64,000 bases of DNA from Eubacterium sp. (lineage in GTDB: Bacteria; Bacillota; Clostridia; Oscillospirales; Acutalibacteraceae). Positions 16,186 to 23,998 of this stretch are shown here, piece by piece (the first letter of the stretch is position 1; every line of letters starts with the position of its first letter). The stretch covers positions 1 through 64,000 of the forward strand of contig JAGHJI010000069.1 of NCBI GenBank assembly GCA_017886765.1, given 5' to 3'. Both the position numbers and the translations under genes were made by a program. The notes under the pieces are model-generated. The model saw nothing but the letters and a program-made list of their open reading frames with translations. It did no database searches and was not told the DNA's origin.

Positions 16186-17283
16186 TTAAAATTCCGGAGG
16201 GTTTTCATTGGCGAATACTCTGAACAGCGGCAGACAGGCGGAAAAGAACTTCTTATACGCCTCGCAGTAGTCCGCGCTCTGCCGTGTGCGCTTGCAGCCC
16301 CCCGCCCTGCAGATGCCGTAAAATTTGCAGTTCTTGCATTTTTCCGGTATAACGGCGCTCTCTGTAATAAATTTCTTTGCCGTATCGCAGAACGCAAGCT
16401 CTTTAAATGATTTTTCCTTTATATTCCCAAGGAGGTATTCATCCGTGCAATAGAAATCGCAGGGATAAATATTTCCGTTGCTCTCGCTGACAAACTGGTG
16501 GGAGCAAAAGCCGTTCATTCCGCACTGCTCCGAGGGTTGTCCCAGATAAATACGCACCCAGTTATCAAACTGCCGAATGCTTATGTACCGGTGACGGACA
16601 TAGTCCTTGACATAAAGATTAAAAACCTTGATAAGAAAATCGGCGTACTGCTCATTTGTCATATAAAGCTCGCTTTCCTCCGCAGAATCAAAGGGGCGCA
16701 GACAGGGTATGAACTGAAGATATCTGAAGCCCTTGCTCCTGAAATATTTATATATATCAGCGGCGTTTTCCGCGCAATAGCCCGTCAGTACGGTAAGTAT
16801 ATTGAACTGCGTGCCGTTTCTTTCAAAACATTCAGCGGCACTGAGTATACGGTAAAAGGCGTTTGTGCCGTTAGGCTTTTTTCTGAATTTATTTCTTTCC
16901 CGGTCTCCGTCAAGACTGAGCCCCACAAGAAAATGATTTTTTGTCAGAAACCTTGCCCATTCATCGTCAATCAGCATACCGTTCGTCTGTATACTGTAAT
17001 AAACGGGACTGTTTTTTTTATTTTCAGCCCTGACAGTATCGGTAAAATATCTGAAATAATCAAGCCCTGCCATTGTCGGCTCGCCGCCCTGAAAAGCAAA
17101 CGCCACCGGATGGGCATCCGCAAACACAAGGGCTTTTTGTATCAGCGATTTTGCCGTTTCCCTGTCCATAATACCGTAACCCAGGTGCTCCCTGTGCTCT
17201 GAAACATCACGGTAAAAACAGTATTCACAGGAAAGGTTGCACAGCGACGAGGCAGGCTTTATCATGATGGAAAGCGGCGGCAT
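16186..17283 (-). CDS. Anaerobic sulfatase-maturating enzyme (radical SAM/SPASM)
   Basis: 365 residues. CNLSCEYC (Cys15, Cys19, Cys22) binds the SAM cluster; AFQGGEPTMAG and YSIQTNGMLI are the GGEP and core strands. The C-terminal part has CGMNGFCSHQFVSESNGNIYPCDFYC and CKNCKFYGICRAGGCKR, the SPASM cluster ligands and the signature of anSME. The enzyme oxidises the Cys or Ser of the sulfatase motif to formylglycine without oxygen. Its substrate is almost surely the sulfatase encoded 127 bp upstream. Ribosome site GGAGGG. Confidence 0.93.
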   Translation of the reverse strand: MPPLSIMIKPASSLCNLSCEYCFYRDVSEHREHLGYGIMDRETAKSLIQKALVFADAHPVAFAFQGGEPTMAGLDYFRYFTDTVRAENKKNSPVYYSIQTNGMLIDDEWARFLTKNHFLVGLSLDGDRERNKFRKKPNGTNAFYRILSAAECFERNGTQFNILTVLTGYCAENAADIYKYFRSKGFRYLQFIPCLRPFDSAEESELYMTNEQYADFLIKVFNLYVKDYVRHRYISIRQFDNWVRIYLGQPSEQCGMNGFCSHQFVSESNGNIYPCDFYCTDEYLLGNIKEKSFKELAFCDTAKKFITESAVIPEKCKNCKFYGICRAGGCKRTRQSADYCEAYKKFFSACLPLFRVFANENPPEF

Positions 17284-17373
17284 GGTGGTGTCCCTCCGAA
17301 AAGCATTATTTTTATATGTTTATATTAAACCACAAAATCAAATCCGTCAATAGATACCGGAAACTGCAAAACA

Positions 17374-17400
17374 AAGCCGTCTGAAAATTCAGACGACTTT
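17374..17400 (-). terminator. Hairpin between sulfatase and anSME genes
   Basis: AAGTCGTCTGAA and TTCAGACGGCTT pair (one G-U), followed by TGTTTTG on the minus strand. Its place inside an otherwise co-directional pair suggests partial termination, giving less activating enzyme than sulfatase. Confidence 0.7.
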
Positions 17401-17410
17401 ATGATTTTTA

Positions 17411-19432
17411 TCAGCGTTCTATAATTCCTCTGCGGTTTTCCTTAAAATCCTTTTGAATCTCCTGCAGGCGTTCGTTCATTTCATCGGCAATCTCCGGGTA
17501 AACAGTCGTCCTGTTATAATTCTCTCCCGAATCATCCGTAAGAATATGGAGCCAGTTGTTTCTGTACTTGTCAAAGAAGGCTGAATTGTCATTTTGAATC
17601 CTGTCAAAATACTTGAAAGTCACATAATCGTTATCTGTCAGCACATCATATGTGTAATCCGGATACTGTTGCATAACGCTTTCGGTAGAAACGGTATACT
17701 GTATAGCCTTGATATCCTCACGCTTCATATGGAGAATGGGGTGCCCCGAGGTATGAATGACCGTATCATTTTTCAGCAGCTGTGCCATGGAAACACCGTC
17801 AATGACTCTGTCCGCAGGCATGTAATTCACATCCGAGCCGCCGTTTCCGGTAATACCGCAAAGTTCAACAAGGGTGGGATAAAGGTCCACAAGGGTAGCG
17901 GACTGTGTCCTGACAGTACCGGTTTCACCCAATGCGCCGTCGGAATGATCCCATCTGATCATAAACGGCACCTTCTGTCCCCCTTCGTACGCAAGGTACT
18001 TGCCTCCCCTTAACTCATTTACCGAGCCTTCAAGAGCAGGGCCATTATCGCTCGTAAATACGATAATCGTATCTTCAAGCACACCGAGCTCCTCCATCGT
18101 GTTAAAAAGAATGCCAAGGTATGTGTCAAACTCCGTGATGCAATCCACATAGGTACCCATTCCCGACACGCCGTCATAGTCGTCACCGGCGTAAACAGGA
18201 GCATGAGGCCAGGGAGATGTATACATGGCAAAAAACGGCGAATCCGACTGCGCCTGCTCGGATATCCAGGCGGAAATTTCATCGTGGATCCACTGTGTTG
18301 CCATGGACTGATCCTTTAGCTCATCCGTACCGTGAACGATGGTATACTCACCGTTTTCTTCCCTGACATGATAAAACGGCGTCATATCGTTTACATAATG
18401 GCTTCCGTAAAAATAATCAAAGCCCTGATTTGTCGGCAAATACTCGCCGTAGTCACCCAAATGCCATTTGCCGAAAATTCCTGTAGAGTAACCTGCTGCC
18501 TTAAATGTTTCCGCAACCGTGATCTCATCTCCCAGCATACCATCGGCATTAGCTCCCAATTCAATAGAATTGAATATTCTTGTGGAGGCAAAAGGTGAAA
18601 GCGTATCGACCGTCGGATAAATAACATTGTCCGCATACCCCCTGTACGGATATCTGCCGGTAAGGCAGGCAAAACGCGCCGGAGAACATACAGAATAAGA
18701 CGAATAGAAATTTTCAAAATTAAGGCCGTTTTCACCAATACTGTCGATATTTGGCGTACTGTATATGGAGCCGTTCAGGGATACGTCTCCGTAGCCCAGG
18801 TCGTCCATCAATATAATCAGGACATTCGGGCTGTCTGAACCGGCTGTTTTGTCCACATTGTTGAGGTAATCATCCTGTCCCTCCCAAAGTCTGTCCGTAT
18901 TTGGCTTGGAGCGCATATTCATGGTCAGAACATAAAAGATACTTGTACCCACCAGCGCTATACACAGTACAGCGGAGGTAAACCGCTTTAACCATTCTTT
19001 TTTAAATGTTTTTTTCGCTGTAAAAAACAGTCCCCAAAGCGCAACGGCGCTGGGAAAAATCAGGAGTAGATTCCCAAGGAGTCTGGTGCCGAAATTGCCC
19101 TCCCCTGTCAGCCACGGATGGTCAGCGGAATGAAACCCGGCGAGTCCTGATGTGAAAGCTCCGAATCCTGCGTCGGCGCCCCAAATAATGTAATAGATCA
19201 CAATACCGATACAAGCCGCAGCGTAACCGAAAATCATAGGTGCGTATACTTTTTTCTTAATGATCAGCGTCAGCGCAATAACTGCCGACATGATACAGCA
19301 GTACGCAACGCCCACCACAGCCACAATATTTAACCGTACTATCCATGTTGCCAGCATAATTCCGATACCCAAAACCATCAGAATGACTGGGAATACCTTT
19401 CTTCCGGTATCAAGCGTGATTTTATTTTTCAT
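17411..19432 (-). CDS. Membrane-anchored type I sulfatase (Cys-type)
   Basis: 673 residues. About five membrane helices fill residues 15-170, then the sulfatase domain starts at SPNVLIILMDDLGYGD (metal-binding Asp210-Asp211). The catalytic motif is CSPARFACLTGR with Cys249 as formylglycine precursor; GKWHLGDYG and TSDNGP are further metal and sulfate contacts. The catalytic domain should face outward. Type I sulfatases normally carry a simple signal peptide, so this polytopic anchor is unusual. The substrate is unknown; sulfated mucin or glycosaminoglycan is a guess. Ribosome site AAGGAGGGG. Confidence 0.92.
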   Translation of the reverse strand: MKNKITLDTGRKVFPVILMVLGIGIMLATWIVRLNIVAVVGVAYCCIMSAVIALTLIIKKKVYAPMIFGYAAACIGIVIYYIIWGADAGFGAFTSGLAGFHSADHPWLTGEGNFGTRLLGNLLLIFPSAVALWGLFFTAKKTFKKEWLKRFTSAVLCIALVGTSIFYVLTMNMRSKPNTDRLWEGQDDYLNNVDKTAGSDSPNVLIILMDDLGYGDVSLNGSIYSTPNIDSIGENGLNFENFYSSYSVCSPARFACLTGRYPYRGYADNVIYPTVDTLSPFASTRIFNSIELGANADGMLGDEITVAETFKAAGYSTGIFGKWHLGDYGEYLPTNQGFDYFYGSHYVNDMTPFYHVREENGEYTIVHGTDELKDQSMATQWIHDEISAWISEQAQSDSPFFAMYTSPWPHAPVYAGDDYDGVSGMGTYVDCITEFDTYLGILFNTMEELGVLEDTIIVFTSDNGPALEGSVNELRGGKYLAYEGGQKVPFMIRWDHSDGALGETGTVRTQSATLVDLYPTLVELCGITGNGGSDVNYMPADRVIDGVSMAQLLKNDTVIHTSGHPILHMKREDIKAIQYTVSTESVMQQYPDYTYDVLTDNDYVTFKYFDRIQNDNSAFFDKYRNNWLHILTDDSGENYNRTTVYPEIADEMNERLQEIQKDFKENRRGIIER

Positions 19433-19491: not shown

Positions 19492-20036
19492 TTACAAATT
19501 GAATTTATCTTTTATATATGCAGCAGCCTGCGCCGCCGTAATATCCGTATTATTTATTCTGAGATAATTCTCAAACGGGATTTCCCCTTCCTTGCTGACG
19601 AAACGGTGATTTTTATCATCATCGAGCAGTCTGCGATTTGACGTTTCAATATCTCTTTTTGACGGCTTGTTGTGCAGCCTGTTTTCCGTAGCGTTTCTCT
19701 GCAGACGTATTTCCTGAGGGGCAATAAGCTCCGCGCAGTACACTTGTGCACCACTGAACATATCGCAGACATGTGCCACATAGTCCCAATCCTCCTGACA
19801 GTCAAACGCCCACATAAATGTGAAAATCAGACCGTAATGATTGGATTTCGCATATTCTTTGAATATAACCTCCCTGACCTGCTTTATGGCATCAACGTTA
19901 AAATAGCCGAAAATATCAAGCACCGGCTCAATGGTCATATGGTTGTGAAACAGCCTTAAGTCTGTTATTTTCATCAGCTCCTGACCGACAGTCATTTTCC
20001 CACCGCCGCGTCACCCGTTATCAATACTAATTTCAT
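19492..20036 (-). pseudogene. P-loop kinase-like gene with a -1 frameshift in the Walker A motif
   Basis: From ATG 20036 the frame reads MKLVLITGDAAVGK and stops at TGA. A -1 shift continues with MTVGQELMKITDLRLFHNHMTIEPV and runs 167 more codons to 19492. Joined, the 181 residues match my memory of small AAA/shikimate-kinase-like proteins of Bacillota with GxGAVGKMTVGQEL. The shift lies at G_GGA_AAA (complement of 19995-20001) in exactly the phase of a canonical slippery heptamer, immediately before the stop. It may be a mutation, a sequencing error, or programmed frameshifting. It lies 13 bp downstream of the GNAT gene in the same attenuated operon. Confidence 0.75.
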
Positions 20037-20049
20037 TTTCTTTTTCCTT

Positions 20050-20502
20050 TCACAGTAATTTCAGCATTTTGTAAAACTTACCATACTCGTCCTCACATTC
20101 CGCAATACATCTGAAATCTTTTTTCTCATAAAGATGAATCGCTGTGCTGTTGCTGATATCCACTCCCAAAGCAGCCTCCTTATATCCCAGCCACTTTGCT
20201 TGCTCAAGAAGATGATCAAGAATATCCGAACCTATCCCCTGATTGCGGTATTCCTTTTTTACAATCAGCCTGGAAAAATAAATTCTCCTGCCGGGTATGA
20301 AATAATCACGGTCATCCATACCGGTTACCAAATCACCTTCTCCTATAAATTCACCGCCGATTTTGTATATATAGACCAGGCGTTTACCGTCTATAATCTG
20401 CTTTCTGAATTTTTCAGTAAACGGACATGTTTCCATATTCCATATATTACCGCACTTACCATACTCGTCAATGCCGATTTGTTCTATTGTATATTCCCGC
20501 AT
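20050..20502 (-). CDS. GNAT-family N-acetyltransferase under leader-peptide attenuation
   Basis: 150 residues from ATG 20502, the start best spaced from GGAGG (9 nt). RLIVKKEYRNQGIGSDILDHLLEQA is the acetyl-CoA pyrophosphate-binding motif A; ALGVDISNSTAIHLYEKKDFRCI is motif B. The N-terminal part WNMETCPFTEKFRKQI is not one I can tie to a substrate. The upstream leader (peptide, overlapping hairpins and terminator) is the type used for translation-inhibiting antibiotics or amino-acid supply. A drug- or ribosome-related acetyltransferase is therefore a fair guess, unproven. Confidence 0.85.
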   Translation of the reverse strand: MREYTIEQIGIDEYGKCGNIWNMETCPFTEKFRKQIIDGKRLVYIYKIGGEFIGEGDLVTGMDDRDYFIPGRRIYFSRLIVKKEYRNQGIGSDILDHLLEQAKWLGYKEAALGVDISNSTAIHLYEKKDFRCIAECEDEYGKFYKMLKLL

Positions 20503-20515
20503 AGACATAAACCTC

Positions 20516-20553
20516 CAAAATAAAAATACCACCGATGATAGCTCATCCGTGGT
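20516..20553 (-). terminator. Attenuator terminator before the GNAT gene
   Basis: In the transcript ACCACGGATGA (20543-20553) pairs with TCATCGGTGGT (20528-20538), 10 of 11 pairs, followed by ATTTTTATTTT. It ends directly at the GNAT ribosome site. The 5' arm can instead pair with TCATCTATGGT at the end of the leader peptide gene (20581-20591), forming an antiterminator. Confidence 0.8.
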
Positions 20554-20578
20554 CAGGTACAAAAATAAATATAGTATA

Positions 20579-20668
20579 TCACCATAGATGAACAGCACAA
20601 ATGAGTCCCATGCGAAATCTACGCATAAGATGCATCTGTCTGTTCATTTTATTAACCTGATTCATCAT
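20579..20668 (-). CDS. 29-residue leader peptide of the GNAT operon
   Basis: ATG 20668 to TGA 20579, with AAGGTGA well placed upstream. The peptide starts MMNQVNKMNRQMHLM, continues with a basic RRFRM stretch and ends in AVHLW. Six Met and four Arg are notable. Within the gene, ATGAACAG (20640-20647) pairs with CTGTTCAT (20588-20595), a pause hairpin whose 3' arm overlaps the antiterminator segment. A ribosome held early in the peptide would free that segment and permit read-through. Confidence 0.72.
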   Translation of the reverse strand: MMNQVNKMNRQMHLMRRFRMGLICAVHLW

Positions 20669-20688
20669 AAAAATCACCTTGTTTTTCT

Positions 20689-20717
20689 ATGGTAACATAT
20701 TCCCTTACCCGTGTCAA
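20689..20717 (-). promoter_or_regulatory. Promoter of the attenuated GNAT/kinase operon
   Basis: Minus strand: -35 TTGACA (20712-20717), 17-bp spacer, -10 TACCAT (20689-20694), giving a leader of about 180 nt before the GNAT start codon. It begins right beside the stop codon of the upstream metallophosphoesterase gene. Confidence 0.8.
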
Positions 20718-23257: not shown

Positions 23258-23998
23258 TTATTGGAAGTCAAAAACATTTACCCAGGAATCAAGGAGTTCC
23301 TTTTCTCCCGGAATATTCTTAACGCTTTCAGAGCAGGCGACAATCGGCATCCACTGCTGTACAAGCTGTTTTGGAATATCCGCCTTTTTGCAGAACAGGT
23401 TGAGATATTTCTCAGCAAGTTCCTTATTGCCCTGAAGATTAAAGGTAAGGTAAGTCCTGGCGGCATCGGCGGAAGCGTTGCCCTGTGTTGCGTGCGACCA
23501 GTCGATGATATAGTACTCGCCGTCGGCGGTAACCAGCACGTTTGACGGGCAGTAATCGCCGTGAAGCACCTTGGTATGTTTTTTCATACCCTCAAGACGG
23601 TTATGAAGATCATACCGAATGGTTGCCTCATAGGATGACGCGCTGATTTTCTCATGCATCTTATCCTTGATTTTGTTCAGGTGGGGAGACCTCTTTGAAT
23701 GGATCTCCATCTGAAGATCAACGAATTTTTCAAGATATTCGTCTTCCTTTTCGGGATTTTCATCCATAAGCTCGGAAAGGGTCTTACCCTCAATATATTC
23801 CCTGGTAATCGCCCAGCCGTTCTCTGTTTTTCTGACGTCAAGGAGCTTTGGAATTTTCAGACCTGTTTCCTCCACCCTGGCGTTATTCAGCGCCTCGTTG
23901 AGCACCTCCGCTTTTGTAAAGGTTTCATCAAATTCCTTAACGAGCTTGTCGCCGTCACGGTAAAATTTCTTATGTTCTCTCTCTTTAATCGTTGCCAT
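23258..23998 (-). CDS. Aminoglycoside-phosphotransferase-like kinase
   Basis: 246 residues. HGDYCPSNVLVTADGEYYIIDWSHA carries the catalytic Asp and the metal-binding DW of the APH/choline-kinase fold. TREYIEGKTLSELMDENP is the hinge region. It is shorter than typical aminoglycoside kinases and looks like the broad family acting on small metabolites, so resistance should not be assumed. Ribosome site GGGGGTG; own promoter at 24016-24044. Confidence 0.85.
   Translation of the reverse strand: MATIKEREHKKFYRDGDKLVKEFDETFTKAEVLNEALNNARVEETGLKIPKLLDVRKTENGWAITREYIEGKTLSELMDENPEKEDEYLEKFVDLQMEIHSKRSPHLNKIKDKMHEKISASSYEATIRYDLHNRLEGMKKHTKVLHGDYCPSNVLVTADGEYYIIDWSHATQGNASADAARTYLTFNLQGNKELAEKYLNLFCKKADIPKQLVQQWMPIVACSESVKNIPGEKELLDSWVNVFDFQ

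Follow-up and report, generated by a model that had tools for sequence, protein, structure and literature searches.

The leader and its operon in the window

The window is the whole stretch of DNA that was analysed, 64,000 nucleotides from Eubacterium sp. (assembly GCA_017886765.1, contig JAGHJI010000069.1, positions 1 to 64,000). A leader spans 20717-20517 on its minus strand, directly after a phosphoesterase gene of the same strand (stop codon at 20722-20720) and in front of a GNAT acetyltransferase gene and a P-loop kinase-like gene. Its parts and the two genes are as follows.

20689..20717, minus strand: promoter, TTGACA at 20717-20712, a 17 nt spacer and TACCAT at 20694-20689 (score 10/12)
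20697-20696, minus strand: TG of the promoter, before TACCAT, as read in the sequence
20675..20680, minus strand: ribosome-binding site AAGGTG of the leader ORF, as read in the sequence
20579..20668, minus strand: leader ORF of 29 codons plus TGA, MMNQVNKMNRQMHLMRRFRMGLICAVHLW, as read in the sequence
20640..20647, minus strand: segment 1, ATGAACAG, outer part of the long ORF hairpin, with segment 2 as its partner
20605..20631, minus strand: inner hairpin of codons 13-21, 20631-20622 pairing with 20614-20605, nested in 1:2
20588..20595, minus strand: partner stretch of segment 1, CTGTTCAT, 1:2 pairing at 8/8 positions
20581..20594, minus strand: segment 2, UGUUCAUCUAUGGU, antiterminator 5' strand, shared with the final codons of the leader ORF
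20591-20581 with 20553-20543, minus strand: 2:3 pairing of TCATCTATGGT with ACCACGGATGA, 10/11 including one G-U
20543..20553, minus strand: segment 3, ACCACGGATGA, antiterminator 3' strand, doubling as the terminator 5' strand
20528..20538, minus strand: segment 4, TCATCGGTGGT, 3' strand of the terminator
20517..20527, minus strand: U-rich terminator tail, ATTTTTATTTT, abutting the GNAT ribosome site GGAGG at 20516-20512
20050..20502, minus strand: GNAT acetyltransferase gene, ATG at 20502 with an alternative ATG at 20508 (Pfam PF00583, 52.9 bits)
19492..20036, minus strand: P-loop kinase-like gene, frame interrupted shortly after the start and open only from 19995

Direct reading of the sequence bore out the coordinates and pair counts that a first-pass annotation had assigned to the leader. 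The 3:4 pairing of ACCACGGATGA with TCATCGGTGGT holds at 10/11 positions, with one G-G mismatch, and 1:2 reads as the outer part of a longer stem. Both genes of the GNAT/kinase pair described there are present, but the kinase frame is broken in this assembly, which reflects either real damage or an assembly error.

The 170-nt leader has a predicted folding energy of -56.0 kcal/mol compared with -33.0 (sd 3.5) for its shuffles (z -6.6); the terminator alone gives z -5.1, and the stretch containing 2:3 but lacking strand 4 gives z -3.7. Promoter-like sites are not commoner in this region than chance (6 vs 7.9 in shuffles). A generic terminator scan of the region did not list the 3:4 terminator and listed a hairpin inside the ORF, at 20630-20606. 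This is the conserved inner hairpin of codons 13-21, a covarying element overlooked in the original set of three pairings, which was to that extent incomplete. At the level of sequence the leader is confirmed as a real feature of the window, and the decisive support for it is comparative.

Related leaders and their conserved structure

Relatives of the GNAT numbered 34 in GTDB genomes, 14 of them close. Directly upstream, five of the close relatives have a leader closely akin to that of the window and one (L012) has a divergent one. The majority of the GNAT-relative loci carry no leader in the flanks that were fetched. A covariance model built from seven leaders (R1) placed leaders farther upstream at loci headed by a gene other than this GNAT, namely a kinase at L007, another GNAT at L001 and L008, a methyltransferase at L011 and an S51 peptidase at L043, the last of these from a search of 398 genomes of the family. 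Gene order differs among these loci, and the leader heads the operon in each.

Within the window's own genus of gut Clostridia, R1 matched 36 of 80 genomes at 50 sites (E <=0.001). Three of the 49 fetched R1 sites (L133, L154, L159) were dropped before counting as not leader-like, and the working set of 50 leaders comprises the remaining genus sites, including the window, together with L008, L043 and L037. The dropped site L133 (G1194:C41) scores 70.1 bits with R1 and 77.7 bits with the second model described below, but has neither an ORF with a ribosome site nor an expected downstream gene; perhaps it is a decayed or orphaned attenuator.

All 50 leaders went into a second model, R2, whose base pairs are those of the inner hairpin and the terminator. 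It spans the start codon to the U-run and takes in neither promoter nor ribosome site nor the 2:3 pairing; the start codon and the letters of segment 2 are not independent of it. R2 matched 46 of the 80 genus genomes at 81 places, and 11 of 398 genomes in the family. At 31 of 35 R2 sites outside the training set the leader was accepted, with an ORF and, 62-78 nt from its start, the beginning of a 2:3 duplex (looked for from 60 nt onwards), and 30 of these 31 sites have a promoter scoring at least 9/12. Of the other four, three look false (L196, L197, L201), and at L180 no ORF was called. Altogether 82 sites were judged genuine: 77 in the genus (the 81 R2 matches minus the rejected L133, L154, L196 and L197) and five in four other genera of the family (L043, L037, L198, L199 and L200). 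L037 carries the same leader as L006, and was left out of the 81-site count and the set of 79 peptides used below. The genome of the window itself contains a second copy (L188), in front of a GNAT and a methyltransferase.

Beyond the family, no convincing match to the leader was found in samples of the order (394 genomes for R1 and 245 for R2, both samples including the genus and both under strict filters). R1 matches above 60 bits occurred only in genomes G000 and G149, the others reaching about 43 bits at most, and seven weaker matches that were inspected (L068-L074) showed no such leader; R2 gave a single match outside the genus, at 45.9 bits. When 391 genomes of the class were searched with a profile of the peptide, the only convincing match was the window itself, and three further ones were weak (E ~0.003) and lay in unlike places. 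The peptide is thus a poor search handle, and the RNA a good one. Rfam (release 15) had no match at the window leader at the gathering threshold and none at the leaders of seven other loci at E up to 1, the scan covering the window and seven of the other 81 sites. Searches of the open-access PMC literature listed no paper on the leader family. Viral contigs searched with the window GNAT held no relative, and one methyltransferase leader locus compared with phage records matched two unannotated records, solely in the sequence upstream of the leader.

The layout of the leader recurs across the family. The consensus promoter of the first-pass annotation, TTGACA-N17-TACCAT, is present in the window, and a TTGACA-like and TANNNT-like pair scoring at least 9/12 starts 48-63 nt upstream of the start codon at 49 of the 50 sites, a score that 191 of 1000 random positions also reach. 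At 10/12 or more the figures are 44/50 and 29/1000, and the spacer is 17 nt at all but two sites. The 29-codon peptide with its own ribosome site, likewise seen in the sequence, has counterparts at the other sites: an ORF was called at 49/50, the exception being L043, which is cut by a contig end. These ORFs have 27-39 codons, most commonly 29, and end in or past segment 2. A ribosome-site motif from the author's list precedes 49/49 ORFs of the first set and 29/31 of the held-out ORFs (all except L175 and L191).

Measured from the first base of the ORF, the start of segment 2 lies 69-80 nt downstream in 48 of the 49 leaders aligned, the exception being L146 (84 nt). The inner hairpin ends 10-11 nt before it in all 50 aligned rows, whereas the terminator follows segment 2 at a variable distance (24-46 nt). 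The register-free energy test described below took the segment-2 core nearest to one offset, and the narrow range of offsets in that test is partly forced; the alignment-based offsets of 69-80 nt and the two-frame split given below are independent of that choice. In a free duplex search the best segment-2 partner lay elsewhere at 5/49 sites, 43-51 nt into the ORF.

Covariation across homologous leaders had been named by the first-pass annotation as a check on its reading, and it was found for both 3:4 and 2:3 in an alignment of the 50 leaders (A4). In this alignment 97.8% of the cells of the 3:4 terminator are paired, with both-side changes in 9/12 pairs, and 91.6% of those of the inner hairpin, with both-side changes in 8/10 pairs. 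Together these two helices hold 136 cells with both-side changes compared with 33.2 in shuffles, and none of 500 shuffles was as high. In slid registers pairing falls to 31-49%, with far fewer both-side changes; the structure was derived from A4 itself, which favours the unslid register.

For the 2:3 antiterminator, 87.6% of cells are paired and both-side changes occur in 5/11 pairs; the 40 cells with such changes exceed the shuffled mean of 8.7, with 0/500 shuffles as high. Two of five measures are not clearly above shuffles (number of pairs with both-side changes, 52/500; further pair types, 463/500) because the core, UGUUCAU of segment 2 with GAUGA, is nearly invariant. The covariation evidence for 2:3 comes from the outer half of segment 2, which varies jointly with segments 3 and 4 (UGGU/ACCA, CGG/CCG and GUAGUU/AACUGC). 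Segments 3 swapped between sites bind nearly as well (mean -11.4 kcal/mol compared with -13.1 for a site's own). Ranked against the others, a site's own segment 3 comes first just once in 50 sites, with a median rank of about 13.

The 1:2 pairing fared differently. In the exact register first proposed, 67.0% of cells are paired family-wide compared with 66.1% in shuffles, with no covariation, and the helix in that register was rejected as a conserved lock. Since segment 1 occupies different columns across subfamilies, a register-free energy test was chosen. In this test segment 2 pairs upstream with a mean of -8.9 kcal/mol, compared with -4.4 when segment 1 is shuffled, and at most 3 of 60 shuffles were as good at 26 of 49 sites. 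The window is one of these (-11.0 vs a shuffled mean of -5.0 kcal/mol; 3/60 shuffles as good). At several sites (L139, L147, L151, L008) the register-free pairing was no better than in shuffles, which suggests that some members may be ON when the leader goes untranslated. Of the three pairings originally proposed, 3:4 and 2:3 stand, and an upstream pairing of segment 2 is supported at about half of the sites. Taken as a whole, the alignment supports the attenuator reading, which survives the covariation test.

Downstream operons

The proteins encoded behind the first set of leaders fall into seven recurrent clusters: GNAT (47), P-loop kinase (18, including two or more that are incomplete), two methyltransferase clusters (12 and 8), S51 peptidase (9), NUDIX (4) and HAD (2). 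Further downstream proteins are one S66 peptidase and one nucleotidyltransferase (Pfam, one member each) and a gene judged by eye to be phosphoesterase-like. Where a held-out site has its first gene within 320 nt, that gene belongs to one of the seven first-set clusters in 30 of 32 cases. Over all 81 sites the figure is 71 of the 78 not at a contig end, a count that includes the first set, which had helped to define the clusters; the background is 1/145 ORFs, with spurious antisense frames counted. The window's own genome encodes 18 GNATs (PF00583) in 1.9 Mb, two of which are the first gene behind a leader.

The recurrent clusters are modification enzymes rather than biosynthetic or transport proteins. 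No transporter occurs among the seven, and one ABC-transporter-like ORF lies further downstream of L126. None of 14 downstream proteins scanned, the window GNAT included, reaches an NCBIfam cut-off, so a role as resistance enzymes is putative. The P-loop kinase cluster (L118_2 and 17 further proteins) carries the motif GDAAVGKMTVGQEL, and intact members stand behind other leaders, unlike the interrupted frame of the window. One intact member has no match in Pfam, NCBIfam or PDB sequences. Its predicted structure (mean pLDDT 82.7) resembles many small-molecule P-loop kinases, a fold which is accordingly predicted for this member; the matches include PSTK and gluconate, shikimate and APS kinases, with chloramphenicol phosphotransferase at rank 38, and name no substrate.

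Two observations concern individual operons. An S66 LD-carboxypeptidase-type protein is encoded by the second gene of the L155 operon, together with GNATs behind one leader. The combination of a peptidase (S66 at L155, S51 elsewhere) with an acetyltransferase is reminiscent of immunity to peptide-nucleotide antibiotics. In related genera (L040, L042, L046, L047, L048 and L050) the same GNAT lies inside a longer frame of 423-453 aa with an uncharacterised N-terminal part, and no leader was found within the flanks fetched for these loci.

Proposed mechanism, alternatives and known systems

Sequence comparison supports the promoter, the ORF, helices 2:3 and 3:4, the inner hairpin, the geometry and the operon types. 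Together these features point to a family of ribosome-mediated transcription attenuators whose operons would be ON when translation of the leader ORF is impeded, a reading to which a probability of about 0.72 is given. Transcription would begin just upstream of the leader ribosome site. Since the leader ORF ends over segment 2, normal translation would hide that segment: a ribosome reaching the stop codon would cover it, 3:4 would form and RNA polymerase would terminate before the first gene. If no ribosome were loaded, segment 2 would, in the window's subfamily, be held by the upstream RNA through 1:2, which again would give termination. A ribosome slowed or stalled at about codons 5-20 would leave segment 2 free to form 2:3, allowing read-through. 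A hairpin so close to the growing RNA end is what is expected of a pause hairpin, and the inner hairpin, which ends 10-11 nt short of segment 2, may be one, holding RNA polymerase until the leading ribosome comes. As a delayed ribosome would give read-through and full translation would give termination, the signal is likely to be slowed elongation, and it probably comes from ribosome-targeting compounds. With their GNAT, methyltransferase, kinase, S51 peptidase and NUDIX genes, the operons probably serve to modify or destroy such compounds or to repair the damage that they cause. Transcription start, ribosome positions, pausing, signal and enzyme role are the parts of this scheme that we infer.

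What the leader ORF encodes bears on several other explanations. The RNA core of segment 2 is read as C-V-H in 27 of 49 leaders and as C-S-F, in another frame, in 22/49, so its conservation is at the level of the RNA. Over codons 2-22 pN/pS in frame 0 is 0.50, 0.62 and 0.68 in three peptide groups and 0.77-1.03 in the other frames, a comparison tilted towards low frame-0 values, since its pairs were chosen for peptide identity; another frame is lower in two sub-ranges (codons 2-12 of group D and 13-22 of group B). These values suggest a modest constraint on the peptide. Such purifying selection, and the position of the short ORF before methyltransferase, GNAT, kinase and peptidase genes, would suit a functional small peptide, for example the precursor of a modified peptide, which the downstream enzymes tailor, the hairpin being an ordinary intergenic terminator. 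This is very unlikely in view of the conserved 3' end of the ORF being read in two frames, the covariation of 2:3 and the inner hairpin, the lack of a peptide core common to the subfamilies and the seven recurrent clusters holding no transporter. Pairings arising by chance around an intergenic terminator, with no regulatory role, are the least credible explanation, and its probability is close to nil. Terminators are common, and R1 alone gave many matches of ~27-43 bits among genomes of the order that do not resemble this leader, but the comparative results on ORF, promoter, covariation, held-out sites and first-gene clusters all stand against it.

The two remaining alternatives keep an attenuator and change its signal. 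The architecture is that of amino-acid attenuators, in which a ribosome stalled at hungry codons (e.g. for Met, Arg, Cys or Trp) opens a metabolic operon, and the first-pass annotation had offered Met or Arg starvation as an option. The window peptide has five Met besides the start and four Arg, and Trp occurs at residues 16-24 in 42 of 79 leaders. Runs of at least three identical residues are found, however, in only 3/79 peptides, with a different residue in each; no codon run is common to the 79, other subfamilies have different residues where that of the window is rich in Met and Arg, and none of the recurrent downstream clusters is one of biosynthesis or transport. Met or Arg starvation was rejected as a feature of the family, and a starvation signal in general is improbable. 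A somewhat better candidate, though still an unlikely one, is a drug-specific arrest peptide of the macrolide type (R/K-x-R/K, as in tlrB/yxjB), each leader serving one drug class. It is favoured by the constraint on the peptide, by R-F-R at residues 17-19 of the window leader, which fits a stall that leaves segment 2 free, and by the RYR motif that acts in this way in the tlrB leader (PMC6851288). Against it, R/K-x-R/K at residues 7-22 occurs in 5/79 leaders, fewer than in shuffled peptides (15.2), the nearest relatives of the window leader have no R-F-R, and what the subfamilies have in common is the RNA, not the peptide. A common R-x-R arrest motif was rejected for the family, the single case of the window being set apart.

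The attenuator proposed here is of a known kind. In trp-type amino-acid attenuators, 1:2, 2:3 and 3:4 follow the same logic and the leader ORF ends over segment 2; the present leaders would share the pairing logic, but have no regulatory codon run and no biosynthetic operon. Two genes of an Escherichia coli operon, yjhQ and yjhP, are presumably GNAT-like and methyltransferase-like, and the operon that contains them, topAI-yjhQ-yjhP, is controlled by a uORF as the operons here would be. This uORF, toiL, answers several classes of ribosome inhibitor by controlling ribosome-site access with Rho-dependent termination, and topAI-yjhQ is described as a toxin-antitoxin pair (PMC12121999); the family described here uses an intrinsic terminator and an antiterminator instead.

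The toiL uORF and the tlrB (yxjB) leader of Bacillus subtilis are the closest worked examples. The latter has a leader ORF, an antibiotic-stalled ribosome, a terminator before the gene, pausing at a hairpin and a modifying enzyme (PMC6851288), the ribosome and pausing steps being the ones that are proposed for the present leaders. Its peptide has nine residues and a C-terminal RYR arrest motif, it serves a single target gene, and its ribosome site is blocked in addition (PMC6851288). The present family differs in having 27-39 codons, mutually exclusive 2:3 and 3:4, no arrest motif in common and, within one genus, many copies that precede different operons. Firmicute uORFs of ARE ABC-F genes (cplR, vmlR, lsaA) also act through premature termination that stalled ribosomes relieve, as may happen here, but they have 3-4 codons (MRI, MIN, MAGN) and the gene encodes an ABC-F factor (PMC10201436), whereas the present ORFs are far longer and precede other genes. 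The uORFC-6-1 motif before hflX resembles the family in having covarying RNA structure inside a Firmicute uORF and a proposed control by antibiotic stalling; it has a conserved Arg-Leu-Arg, is found mainly in Bacillales and has chiefly one downstream gene (PMC8632094). In an earlier survey of premature terminators, neither 'GNAT' nor 'acetyltransferase' appears in the main text (PMC2965389).

What is unusual is that one attenuator recurs throughout a genus in front of modifying-enzyme operons of many kinds, its RNA conserved and its peptide variable. A wider reading, which is tentative and to which we give somewhat less than even odds, is that of a genus-wide regulon, in which dozens of such operons each have their own modular copy of the attenuator, the RNA being conserved and the peptide free to diversify and so tunable to different translation inhibitors. 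The leader would then mark hidden inducible enzymes against ribosome-targeting compounds in gut Clostridia. If this is right, it could serve as a sequence tag for finding operons induced by translation stress, with no prior knowledge of their enzymes, and GNATs, methyltransferases, the P-loop kinase family and S51 peptidases would be joined in one programme of uncultured gut bacteria, by an attenuator copied across the genus with conserved RNA and variable peptide.

Two further features of the window were noted. A sulfatase (PF00884) followed by a radical-SAM-like ORF, presumably akin to an anaerobic sulfatase maturase, occupies 16186-19432 on the minus strand. An ORF at 23258-23998, also on the minus strand, contains an HGDYCPSN motif and looks to us like a kinase of the aminoglycoside/choline phosphotransferase type.
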